DNA of 64,000 bases from Candidatus Krumholzibacteriota bacterium (lineage in GTDB: Bacteria > Krumholzibacteriota > Krumholzibacteriia > JAJRXK01): NCBI GenBank assembly GCA_029262065.1, contig JAJDAC010000027.1, positions 62,001 to 126,000 on the forward strand. The letters run 5' to 3'. Shown here in pieces: positions 35,705 to 39,361 of the stretch (its first letter is position 1; each line of letters starts with the position of its first letter). Below the pieces are notes generated by a model that worked only from the letters and a program-made list of their open reading frames with translations, had not been told where the DNA came from and searched no databases. A program made the translations under genes and the position numbers.

Positions 35705-35759
35705 ATACTTCACGTCATGATTTGTGGGCCTGCGATCCCTACCCTATTCAGCGAGTGTC

Positions 35760-37511
35760 ATGAAACTTTCAATCGGGGCCCTTCTTGGGCTCGTCATCGT
35801 GCTGAGCTGGGCGCACGCGTCCTTCGCCGCCGCCCCCGTGGTTGTGGGCACCCTGCCGACCAACCAGGCGCTTCAGGCCGCCGAGACCTCATCTATCGAA
35901 ATCACCTTCGATCAGACGATCAATCCGCTCACCCTCAACGCCATCCGGGTGTTCGGCCGTTGGTCGGGGGTCCACAGGGGTTCATTGCAGGCTCTCGACG
36001 GCAACACGCGCGCGCGCTTCATTCCCTACCAGGCGTTCTCGGCCGGCGAATGGGTGACCGTCAGCATGGCCAAGGGATTGGAGAACATGGCCGGCGAGCC
36101 CATGGCCACCGGTTACACCTGGAACTTCTGGGTCCGTAGCAAGCCCGCCTCGATCGACCTGGTGGAAACGGCGCAGATCCCCGTCCGCCAAACCGGCGAA
36201 CTACACATCCAATGCTACGGCGCCTACGCCGGCGACCTGAACGAAGATGGCTACAGCGACCTGGCGGTCATCAACGAAATCACCGCCGACCTACGCGTCT
36301 TCCTGAACGACGGTGCTGGCGGCTACGGGCCCTTCACCGTGGTTCCGATTCCCAATGGCAATGTACCCAGCGCGAACGAAGGAGCCGACTTCAACGGTGA
36401 CGGCCACATCGATCTGGCCATTGGCAACGGTGGCGGTTCCCACGTCAGCGTAATGCTGGGTGACGGTAATGGCGGCTTCTTGTCGACCACGGCCTATACG
36501 TCGGGGAATCAGGTTCGAGGCATTGGCATTGCCGACCTGGACGGGGACGGCGCCGAGGACATCATTGCCGCCAACCGTTTCTCGAACAACCTGGGGCTAT
36601 TCGAGAACGCGGGCAACGGCGTGTTCTTGCCCGTGGAAACCGTCGAAGCCACGGTCAACGATGAGTACGCCTGCGCGGTCACCGATGCCAATGGTGACGG
36701 AATAGCCGATGTATTCGTGGGCGGCAACATCGGCCAGGAAGTCGTCCTCATGCTGGGCGACGGTGCCGGAAATCTGATTCCGGCGGGTTCGGTGGATGCC
36801 AACGGACGACCGTGGATGATGGCCGCGGGCGACATGAACGGTGACGGACACGCCGATGTGGTCAGCGCCAACTCCTTCGCCAACAACATCGCGGTGATAT
36901 TGGGCGACGGTGCCGGCAACCTCACGCTGGACGATACTTACTTTTCTGGAGCGTTCACGCTGGCGATCGATGTAGGCGACATCGATGGCGATGGCGATCT
37001 TGACGTCGTCGCCAGCAACTTCAGCAGCAACGACTGGTACGTGTGGGAAAACGACGGCACGGGAACGCTGGTGAATCCCAAGGTATACGACGCCAGCGCG
37101 GCTGGCTCATGCGCCATTCTGCACGACCGCGACAACGACGGTGATCTCGACATGACCGGCGTCGATGAACTCGACGACCTGTTGTTCATGTTCGAGAACC
37201 CCGGTCAGGCCACCGGAACCATCCCCACCGTGCCCGCCGCTCAGCTGTTTCAGAATGCGCCCAATCCATTCAACCCCAGCACGCGTATCGACTACCAGGT
37301 GTTCAGCCCGGGCAATGTTTCGCTGCGGGTGTTCGACCTGCGTGGCTCCCACGTGCGCACGTTGATTGATGAACGCACAGAAGTGGGCCGGTTCAGCGCG
37401 CAGTGGGATGGCACGGACACCCAGGGACGAATCGTGGCCTCGGGCGTGTACGTGTACGAACTGCAGACGCCGCGCAACACCTCGAGCCGCCGCATGGTGT
37501 TACTTAAGTAG
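35760..37511 (+). CDS. Secreted FG-GAP/VCBS repeat protein with Ig-like and sorting domains
   Basis: A signal peptide (LSIGALLGLVIVLSWAHASFA) is followed by a Big_5-like Ig domain (ETSSIEITFDQTINPLTLNA). About seven FG-GAP/VCBS blades come next, each with a DxNxDG calcium-loop pattern (DLNEDGYSDLAVINE, DFNGDGHIDLAIGNG, DMNGDGHADVVSAN). The C-terminus is an FlgD-type sorting module (APNPFNPSTRIDYQ, LRVFDLRGSHVRTL, ending RRMVLLK). The ATG at 35760 is chosen because it opens the signal peptide; only a weak GCGAG precedes it. The role is probably extracellular binding. Confidence 0.82.
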   Translation: MKLSIGALLGLVIVLSWAHASFAAAPVVVGTLPTNQALQAAETSSIEITFDQTINPLTLNAIRVFGRWSGVHRGSLQALDGNTRARFIPYQAFSAGEWVTVSMAKGLENMAGEPMATGYTWNFWVRSKPASIDLVETAQIPVRQTGELHIQCYGAYAGDLNEDGYSDLAVINEITADLRVFLNDGAGGYGPFTVVPIPNGNVPSANEGADFNGDGHIDLAIGNGGGSHVSVMLGDGNGGFLSTTAYTSGNQVRGIGIADLDGDGAEDIIAANRFSNNLGLFENAGNGVFLPVETVEATVNDEYACAVTDANGDGIADVFVGGNIGQEVVLMLGDGAGNLIPAGSVDANGRPWMMAAGDMNGDGHADVVSANSFANNIAVILGDGAGNLTLDDTYFSGAFTLAIDVGDIDGDGDLDVVASNFSSNDWYVWENDGTGTLVNPKVYDASAAGSCAILHDRDNDGDLDMTGVDELDDLLFMFENPGQATGTIPTVPAAQLFQNAPNPFNPSTRIDYQVFSPGNVSLRVFDLRGSHVRTLIDERTEVGRFSAQWDGTDTQGRIVASGVYVYELQTPRNTSSRRMVLLK

Positions 37512-37553
37512 CCACGCCTGCGCGAATGTCGCGTGCCCGTCCACGCCAGCGCG

Positions 37554-37590
37554 AAAAAGGAAAAGCCCCGGTCCAGATGGACCGAGGCTT
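37554..37590 (-). terminator. Intrinsic terminator of the small-peptide unit
   Basis: Read on the minus strand, AAGCCTCGGTCC and GGACCGGGGCTT form a 12-bp stem with one G-U pair and loop ATCT, followed by TTCCTTTTT. On the plus strand the same position is a C-A mismatch and no T-tract follows, so it serves the minus strand. Confidence 0.75.
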
Positions 37591-37681
37591 CCCAATTCAG
37601 AGTCGATGACGGTGGGATCCCCGCGATCGGGGTGGTCCGCTGAGGTCAGCGATCCTGTTTCTCCTTTGAGAAAGTGCCCCT

Positions 37682-37726
37682 CTACGAGGCCGTCACCTCC
37701 ACCAAATCGAAACAGTCAGATTGCAT
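37682..37726 (-). CDS. Candidate 14-residue peptide
   Basis: The open frame encodes MQSDCFDLVEVTAS. Its ribosome site, AAGGAGGTGATC, could pair with the whole anti-Shine-Dalgarno end of 16S rRNA, with 10 bases from GGAGG to the ATG. That site contains the stop of the 33-residue frame upstream, so translation would be coupled. The peptide is acidic with one Cys. No family is recognised. It could be a substrate for the adjacent RRE-like methyltransferase, a leader peptide, or a chance frame; the unusually strong ribosome site argues against chance. Confidence 0.45.
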   Translation of the reverse strand: MQSDCFDLVEVTAS

Positions 37727-37733
37727 CGTTTGA

Positions 37734-37835
37734 TCACCTCCTTGCTAGCGCAGACCAAAGGCAGTTCCCAATCTGCCCACCCCCTACGGCCGCCAGTACC
37801 GCAGAAGACGCCGCGCTTGCGCATTGGTTCGTCAT
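37734..37835 (-). CDS. Candidate 33-residue peptide
   Basis: The frame starts at an ATG 10 bases after GGAGG (37846-37850). It encodes MTNQCASAASSAVLAAV, then GGGQIGNCLWSALARR, ending in TGA within the next ribosome site. An Ala/Ser-rich first half, a triple glycine and a Cys/Trp-containing last part recall double-glycine-type precursors, although the leader lacks their usual acidic pattern. The frame is open 41 codons further upstream with no better start. It follows a TTGACA promoter on the same strand. Existence as a protein is unproven. Confidence 0.42.
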   Translation of the reverse strand: MTNQCASAASSAVLAAVGGGQIGNCLWSALARR

Positions 37836-37865
37836 AGTCAACGGACCTCCACAAGCTACGAGTTT

Positions 37866-37880
37866 GATGTTACTGACATC
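37866..37880. promoter_or_regulatory. Palindrome at the predicted start of the peptide transcript
   Basis: GATGTTACTGACATC has GATGT/ACATC arms around a 5-base centre. It overlaps the -10 and predicted transcription start on the minus strand, where a repressor could bind. Confidence 0.35.
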
Positions 37881-37906
37881 TTGGGCAAAGCCCACGGCGA
37901 TGTCAA
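37878..37906 (-). promoter_or_regulatory. Promoter candidate for the small-peptide unit
   Basis: On the minus strand a perfect -35 TTGACA (37906-37901) is 17 bases from CAAGAT (37883-37878). The layout and -10 resemble TTGACC-17-TAAGAT at 13416. Transcription would start near 37871, about 36 bases before the first ATG. Confidence 0.5.
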
Positions 37907-38131
37907 CCCGCCCCATTGGCGGGGGCCCAACTATTTGCCTTGCAAGATTCGCAACCAAATTGAGTCAAATCCACTCACCCGGGACCAACACCGCAAGATT
38001 TCACCCAGATTCGAACGCGCGTTCTACCGAAGAACAACATCCCGGCGTTTCTTCTGTTTCGGCACTGCCAACGACGATATCATTGGGCCCTACGCGAACC
38101 CTTCCCGCCGCGGAACGGTCACTCACTCCTC
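37907..38131. other. Intergenic stretch between peptide unit and methyltransferase
   Basis: No convincing gene is seen on either strand. It looks less GC-rich than its surroundings and should hold the promoter of the divergent methyltransferase gene, which could not be pinned down. Frames that cross it lack ribosome sites and family signatures. Confidence 0.5.
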
Positions 38132-39361
38132 GTGGAGGAACCAGCCATCGACTGGAAACTTCCGTACGTCGTTTCGAAGTCCCTGAACTTCGAAATCTCG
38201 CGTCAGGCAAAATTGGTGGGATCGTCCTCGGTTTCCCGACCGCCCAAGGAGCTGGCGCTCGACGCCCTCCCGGTTCTCATGACCTTTGCTGCCGGAAGCA
38301 CGCCCCAAGCGGCCCTGGCCAAACTGCAAGAGGATTGGGATTTCGACGAAGACGGGTTCAAGGTGGTGGTGGAAGCCCTGCTGCAGCAGAACTTCCTGAC
38401 GCCACTACCGAACTCTGCCACCGGCCCCTCGCTGGCCGCCGAAGGGTTCGCGTCGCTGTTCACCCACCACCAGATGCTGCGCGATTCGGTGAGGGTCATG
38501 GCCTATCGGGCGGCGATCGCCCGGCATTGCCAAGACAAGGTTGTCGTCGAAGTGGGTTGTGGCTCCGGCGTTCTGTCGTTGTTCGCCGCGCAAGCAGGAG
38601 CTCGGCGGGTGATTGCCATCGAAGAAAGCGCCATCGCCGATCTCGCCCGCCGCATGTTCGAGACGAATGGTTTTGGCGACGTAATCGAACTACGTCTTGG
38701 CAACAGCCGAGACATCGAGCTGGATGAGCCCGCGGACGTAATCATCCACGAGATTCTCGGCGTGGATCCTCTGGTCGAGAATCTGCTGCCTCTTATTGAA
38801 GATGCCCGTCAGCGCCTGTTGCGGCCGGGTGGCCGACTGCTGCCACAGCGGCTGGAGATCTGTTGCCGGGGGCTGGAGCTCGAAGACGTTCCGTATCGCG
38901 ACAAGCCGCGCCTGCTTTCAGAAGCCCATGAATTCGACGGCCTGTACGGTGTCGACTTCAGCCCGTATCGGGCACTCCTTGCCGAACTCGAACCACACCA
39001 TTTTCTGCCACCGATCAGCGGCGGCCAGGGAACCTTCGGCCACAAGGTCCTGTCCGAGGAACACAAGCTCCTGGACATCGACCTCCATTGCATCGATTCC
39101 GCTCTCGACGGCCGCATCGATGTGCCCTTGCGTATCGCAAATGCCGGATCGCTGGCGGGCTTGGTACTCTATTTTCGAGCCCACCTCGATTCACGCAGCC
39201 AACTGACCACGTCGCCGTTCGCGCCGCGAACCCATTGGGGGTGGGATGTGCGACGGCTGGTGCGCCGGTTACCGGTGGCGGCCGGCGATGAAGTCATGTT
39301 GTCCGTCGAAGTCGAACGCTGGATGGGCAAGCAGCGGCTCAACGTAAATCTCGCGAGTTAG
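38132..39361 (+). CDS. PRMT-like methyltransferase with PqqD/RRE-like N-terminal domain
   Basis: Residues about 1-95 resemble a PqqD-type winged helix used to bind RiPP leader peptides (ALDALPVLMTFAAGSTPQAA, then GFKVVVEALLQQNFLTPL). The rest is a class I SAM methyltransferase with VVVEVGCGSGVLSLFAAQAG (about 139), an Asp/Glu after strand 2 (IAIEES), and the two features of protein arginine methyltransferases: a double-E loop (HEILGVDPLVEN) and a THW loop (APRTHWGWDV, about 365). PRMTs methylate Arg or related side chains; the substrate here is unknown. GTG 38132 is the first possible start in the frame and has only a weak ribosome site. It is head-to-head with two tiny peptide frames. Confidence 0.78.
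   Translation: MEEPAIDWKLPYVVSKSLNFEISRQAKLVGSSSVSRPPKELALDALPVLMTFAAGSTPQAALAKLQEDWDFDEDGFKVVVEALLQQNFLTPLPNSATGPSLAAEGFASLFTHHQMLRDSVRVMAYRAAIARHCQDKVVVEVGCGSGVLSLFAAQAGARRVIAIEESAIADLARRMFETNGFGDVIELRLGNSRDIELDEPADVIIHEILGVDPLVENLLPLIEDARQRLLRPGGRLLPQRLEICCRGLELEDVPYRDKPRLLSEAHEFDGLYGVDFSPYRALLAELEPHHFLPPISGGQGTFGHKVLSEEHKLLDIDLHCIDSALDGRIDVPLRIANAGSLAGLVLYFRAHLDSRSQLTTSPFAPRTHWGWDVRRLVRRLPVAAGDEVMLSVEVERWMGKQRLNVNLAS

Follow-up and report, generated by a model that had tools for sequence, protein, structure and literature searches.

Several bacterial systems with a short open reading frame (ORF), or with a Shine-Dalgarno (SD) motif inside a coding sequence, serve here for comparison. SgrS/SgrT and SR1/SR1P are dual-function small RNAs (sRNAs) in which a short ORF is translated and its peptide is the conserved product, the rnTrpL/peTrpL attenuator (14 aa) has a short ORF followed by alternative helices and a terminator, and in prfB and dnaX an internal SD promotes frameshifting inside a long gene. 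In tmRNA, a tRNA-like domain is combined with a tag ORF that lacks an SD. Two Rfam families also enter the comparison: CC2171 (RF01867), a Caulobacter sRNA, and Ms_IGR-5 (RF02471), which is catalogued as an Actinobacteria sRNA of unknown function. Transcripts of the latter family are known from M. smegmatis and Streptomyces (PMC10454040, PMC8079986, PMC8780764), and the part of the literature on RF02471 that was covered contained no account of an ORF.

The window, that is, the whole stretch of 64,000 nucleotides analysed here, carries on its minus strand, at about 37824-37553, what comparative analysis of its sequence indicates is a standalone structured RNA gene of about 270 nt, and not the two-peptide operon of the initial annotation. 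The unit runs from a pseudoknotted 5' domain through an SD, a 14-codon ORF and a 3' multibranch domain to a terminator (Table 1), and the stretch folds more strongly than shuffled sequence (z -3.2). The unit had been drawn at 37906-37554; the SD, the 14-codon frame and the terminator lie within the coherent, shorter extent given here. No Rfam family matched the whole window at its gathering cut-off, and ARAGORN found neither a tRNA nor a tmRNA in it; with an SD and a start codon on its ORF, the locus was also rejected as a tmRNA.

Table 1. Coordinates of the RNA gene, its parts and the features proposed upstream of it.
Feature	Position in window	Strand	Remarks
Whole RNA gene	37553..37824	minus	ends estimated from the P1 hairpin (5') and the terminator (3')
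5' domain	37744..37824	minus	P1, P2, pseudoknot and P3; P1 and P2 conserved in alignment A7
SD1, AAGGAGGTGATC	37732..37743	minus	from sequence; 65 homologous loci have an SD1 of this type
14-codon micro-ORF, MQSDCFDLVEVTAS	37682..37726	minus	ATG..TAG; start, frame and stop conserved in 30/30 class members
SD2, GGAGGTG	37694..37700	minus	at codons E-V of the ORF; contributes to the 5' side of the closing stem
Closing stem P4, 5' strand, GGTGACGG	37690..37697	minus	outer extension TTGG 37705-37702; starts inside the ORF
3' multibranch interior	37613..37690	minus	hairpin A and two further hairpins, from folds
Closing stem P4, 3' strand, CCGTCATC	37605..37612	minus	anti-SD arm within the same molecule; extended outward by CTGA 37600-37597
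Intrinsic terminator	hairpin 37593-37560, whole element 37553..37593	minus	15-pair stem and T-tract
33-codon frame	37734..37835	minus	overlaps the 5' domain; judged not to be a gene
Proposed promoter	TTGACA 37906-37901, 17 nt, CAAGAT 37883-37878	minus	doubtful; inside an inverted repeat, about 54 nt upstream of P1

The window's own genome holds no full-length match besides the window itself. Among 98 relatives, the best informative BLAST match (E 0.005, not significant alone) lay in G022, Candidatus Latescibacterota (record CP070631; locus L011, the same as L046). This locus agrees with the window in the SD, the start and the next codons (ORF VKSDRCGLAEVASLH, then a stop), and the folds of the two sequences have a closing stem in common (GGTGACGG/CCGTCATC in the window, GGTGGCGT/ACGCCACC in L046). 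A covariance model made from these two sequences alone (R1) detects strong copies across the window's class, one to a genome. With a model made from 30 members (R2), 35 of the 80 class genomes have a strong match (E < 1e-11), among them all four of the window's family, and so do G393 (5.7e-35), G363 (2.7e-25) and G255 (3.3e-18) outside the class. In all, dozens of genomes have covariance-model matches, with per-genome E-values between 1e-8 and 1e-43; genomes that lack a match are possibly misses, since stricter filters applied to the large sets. In the input of the first model (A4) 7 nt were cut from the variable loop of one sequence for flank alignment, and later models were uncut. Within the window, the matches cover 37594-37747 (R1), 37594-37791 (R2) and 37605-37747 (R3, a broader model described below). 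BLAST also matched the terminator alone in G002 and G003 (L010, L015) and a short piece within a coding frame (L013); none of these is related to the RNA. At about 11.8-12.0 kb of one contig (L110/L148, G255:C32), a homologous RNA seems to be interrupted in its 3' domain by a MITE-like element bounded by long terminal inverted repeats (CCTGGATTATGCACGCGTTT..AAACGCGTGCATAATCCAGG).

The conserved fold encloses the reading frame on both sides. P1 of the window is a GCG-CAAG-CGC hairpin that is kept in alignment A7. In alignments A6 and A7 the GGGC loop of the inner hairpin of P2 pairs with a GCCC immediately before the SD, forming the pseudoknot (CTGGC 37796-37792 with GCTAG 37749-37745 in the window), and P3 (GGCAG..CTGCC, 37777-37760) exposes a conserved, unpaired loop of GGGA type. 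Hairpin A carries the stop codon within its loop or close to it, an arrangement found again in homologs, and is followed in the same alignments by further hairpins, the 3' strand of P4 and the terminator; the predicted folds of the multibranch interior contain the hairpins CGCTGA-CC-TCAGCG and CCCCG-ATCG-CGGGG. Across 30 sequences, 93.6% of cells are paired over 37 pairs in seven helices, the pseudoknot included, and pairing falls to 36-48% when the partners are slid as a control. Double changes occur at 21 of these pairs (68 cells), a level reached in 0 of 500 shuffles; an earlier covariation count had covered 18 pairs, the later one 37. In P4 100% of cells are paired, with compensatory changes at three of eight pairs.

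Over 12 nt, SD1 is the complement of the 3' end that bacterial 16S rRNA usually has. All 30 class members have an ATG, GTG or TTG start 5-9 nt past GGAGGT and a frame of 14-15 codons in which GAG GTG, encoding Glu-Val, is invariant. A stop within nine codons past Glu-Val is present in frame 0 in 30/30 members, in frame 1 in 0/30 and in frame 2 in 2/30, and TAA, TAG and TGA all serve as the stop. The count was extended to the 65 loci with a readable ORF, which include many families outside the class; here the micro-ORF has 11-16 codons, and the distance from E-V to the stop is three codons in 44 loci and four in 20, with one locus lacking E-V (given a choice of frames, the script favoured one with E-V). 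The exception is G003 (L111), which keeps the ORF and the stop (VSSIGSGFAGGAAL); G074 (L120) has AAGGTG in place of GAGGTG and gave no usable SD or ORF call by script.

The peptide itself behaves differently from its frame. For the codons before E-V (-8 to -3) pN/pS is 1.14, from few, saturated and structure-constrained codons, against 1.26 and 0.78 in the shifted frames, and with a value of about 1.1 the peptide therefore shows no sign of being kept. Codon 4 (D/H) has a pN/pS of 0.23, and some families have identical or near-identical peptides (e.g., VGLPLTIWTCEVIVT); between families, sequence and length vary widely. An NCBIfam search with doubled peptides gave no match, and PepX of Streptomyces, considered as a relative, is unrelated in sequence. 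These observations suggest that it is translation, and not the peptide, that evolution has conserved. The second of the two frames in the initial annotation is borne out as a frame, and the alternative offered there, an RNA with tightly coupled translation, comes close to the evidence.

A pattern scan for SD1, a start codon and GAGGTG over 386 genomes around G196 matched 18 genomes, against two for the reversed control. Three of the loci were rejected as coding; in the non-coding ones GAGGTG without exception shares the frame of the start, and the stop follows three codons on (four in L129, which comes from a class genome), for example MQHTISEVAEA, LEINLWISEVAET, LSKAQMWIAEVAVR and LAKHHLNSEVAEA, each ending at a stop. 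Neither the frame of GAGGTG nor the spacing to the stop is driven by the pattern, because the pattern selected for neither. Several distant members are without the 5' domain, three (L136-L138) show promoter-like hexamers by eye immediately upstream of SD1, and the closing stem of distant members reads GGTGGCTG..CAGYCCACC and variants. A short-form RNA lies about 30-50 nt from an FMN riboswitch on the same strand (L126, 1197-1354; RF00050, 95 bits). A pattern scan of viral contigs gave two matches, both without the anatomy of the RNA.

It is among these distant members that RF02471 comes into view. Its covariance model (gathering cut-off 45) has no match at that cut-off in the whole window, nor any in 37500-38150 at E<=10, and matches no class locus; it scores above the cut-off in L131 (62.7 bits), L130 (58.9) and L127 (52.3), and matches five further distant loci below it. 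A third model, R3, was trained on the class and on other distant members, the window included, with no locus above the RF02471 cut-off, and it recovers L131 at 2e-9, L130 at 1e-6 and L127 at 4e-6 (in 104 kb); on the window, which is in its training set, it gives 7.9e-16. Among 388 genomes around G381, 85 match R3 at E <= 0.01, with one match each, and all 23 loci read among them, by a script that looked for G[AG]GGTG, have E-V, three codons and a stop. L116, which is antisense to the 3' end of 16S, and L115, L124, L125, L132 and L141, which are coding, were rejected as false positives.

The window RNA and RF02471 have in common SD1, an in-frame GAG-GTG, a stop three to four codons on, a closing stem (GGTG-ATTG..CAGTCACC in RF02471) and a terminator; L127, L130 and L131 each have a frame of the ..EV, three codons, stop type, and both are standalone genes. 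They differ in that the window RNA has an additional pseudoknotted 5' domain and in that the Rfam alignment of RF02471 draws no such closing stem. Since the window falls short of the RF02471 cut-off, we do not file it as a member of that family; placed by its anatomy and by R3, it and RF02471 belong, as far as sequence comparison can tell, to one wider RNA class. CC2171 likewise has the same SD1 and a GUG, GAAAGGAGGUGAUCCAGUG near the 5' end, followed by a terminator hairpin. Its scores are far below the gathering cut-off of 75 (window 10.6, L011 21.8, L126 25.0 bits), the match rests mainly on the SD and the hairpin, and CC2171 was rejected as the family of the window RNA; we note a possible kinship as a lead only. 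In a Nitrospinaceae genome, an intergenic unit (L045:5955-6046) has the same SD and MQSD start (MQSDSIRGASGVIC), a hairpin and a terminator; with no GAGGTG and 25.6-25.9 bits with R1 and R3, it may be a reduced relative or a product of chance.

The elements listed in the initial annotation are all present in the sequence, and its terminator stands, with a stem of 15 pairs and not 12. The promoter fares less well: CAAGAT agrees with TATAAT at three of six positions, and a sigma70 scan of the region at threshold found no site at this place or elsewhere for the window RNA. Several relatives have, by eye, a sigma70-like promoter, TTGCxx-17-TAGAAT, about 14 nt before P1. Overlapping the proposed promoter is an inverted repeat at 37874-37905 (TGACATC..GATGTCA, inner GGGC-TTT-GCCC), which may serve as an operator or form a separate structure. 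The frames that flank the RNA, at 35724-37511 and 38132-39358, look by eye like an FG-GAP-like (NGDGH-type) repeat protein whose C terminus has a sorting-type tail, and like a SAM-dependent methyltransferase for which close relatives are few. Neither is linked to the RNA in other genomes, and the methyltransferase, to which the unit had been tied, was discarded as an anchor, having no relative in the genome contigs searched and weak matches elsewhere. Further along, at 31-36 kb on the minus strand, frames for a Ser/Thr protein kinase, an ECF-type sigma factor and an ABC transporter are adjacent, again by eye.

These data bear unequally on the possible explanations. A chance arrangement in an intergenic region, for which one might cite that the first BLAST link was a single E-value of 0.005 in one of 98 genomes, is scarcely credible, as the covariation and the covariance-model matches in dozens of genomes stand against it; because a covariance model finds strong single copies in 35 of 80 class genomes, the combination of SD, 14-codon frame, folded 3' part and terminator is far beyond chance. 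Hardly more credible is a two-peptide micro-operon, possibly with a double-glycine, bacteriocin-like precursor. Both frames exist, and the TGA of the 33-codon frame does lie inside SD1, but that frame is not conserved in 29 relatives, where stops close several copies within 2-27 codons and there is no common start, and it overlaps the conserved helices of the 5' domain, which also removes the basis for a double-glycine cleavage point; the 14-codon peptide, for its part, shows no detectable purifying selection. A cis-acting leader peptide or attenuator would account for the SD, the short ORF, the alternative pairing and the terminator, all reminiscent of attenuators. We consider it very unlikely: neighbouring genes differ between genomes and are shared only among close relatives, so the RNA is not a cis leader, the next gene to its left in the window is on the opposite strand, and the window RNA differs from rnTrpL/peTrpL in its near-perfect SD, its fixed spacing from internal SD to stop and its lack of a downstream gene.

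Two explanations that accept a standalone RNA deserve more weight. The micropeptide (..EVxxx) could be the active product of a dual-function or coding RNA, as would be consistent with an ORF in 65 loci, the identical or near-identical peptides of some families and the low pN/pS of codon 4. The window RNA resembles SgrS/SgrT and SR1/SR1P in being a small RNA with a short ORF, but here the peptide shows no sign of conservation and the ORF is an integral part of the fold; its overall pN/pS in the class, its divergence between families and the coincidence of the constant E-V codons with a structural stem make this reading unlikely. Slightly less unlikely, though still improbable in our judgement, is a regulatory sRNA that base-pairs with target mRNAs through loops of the 5' or 3' domain and whose micro-ORF is translated mainly to protect or expose the RNA, affecting its stability. 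The standalone gene with its terminator and strong structure, the unpaired GGGA loop of P3 and the cataloguing of RF02471 as an sRNA fit this reading, which is also compatible with conserved translation of a peptide that is not conserved. However, no seed region was identified, and the fixed spacing between GAGGTG and the stop over many families would need a separate reason.

We therefore favour, with moderate confidence, a small-RNA gene, standalone and present in single copy, that would be conserved for its engagement by the ribosome, that is, a ribosome-operated switch or parking RNA. SD1, complementary to almost the whole 16S 3' tail, would recruit the 30S subunit, and the ribosome would then read the micro-ORF, whose translation is predicted from the computed conservation of its frame. 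With the stop 9-12 nt past GAGGTG, pairing between the anti-SD of the ribosome and SD2 could hold the terminating ribosome, because the distance to the P site would be about 6-9 nt, near the SD optimum. The arrangement is like that of prfB and dnaX in placing an SD-like motif at a fixed short distance upstream of a point where the ribosome pauses, and unlike it in that the motif precedes the stop of a frame of 11-16 codons and forms half of a stem. As the covariation of P4 indicates, SD2 doubles as the 5' strand of the closing stem and, in free RNA, pairs with a CCACC-type arm, which would compete with the ribosome; holding the ribosome would thus mean opening the closing stem, and a ribosome at the stop would have to open the 3' domain. 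The conservation of GAGGTG alone is no proof of holding, because the sequence is at once an SD-like motif and a stem strand. The state of the RNA would report or buffer the capacity for initiation or termination. More tentatively, the whole widespread class might function to capture ribosomes, with SD1 loading them, SD2 holding them at the stop and occupancy toggling the fold.

If our reading is right, an RNA class so far listed only as an actinobacterial sRNA occurs once per genome in many bacterial families, and its fixed geometry of SD1, frame, SD2, stop and closing stem leads to testable predictions in Mycobacterium smegmatis and Streptomyces. A micro-ORF indifferent to its peptide, with translation nevertheless conserved, would be an unusual coupling of RNA structure to the state of the ribosome. 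Were the more tentative proposal also true, a ribosome-capturing RNA of this kind would be a general sensor or reserve of ribosome availability or termination, a housekeeping RNA not yet described.
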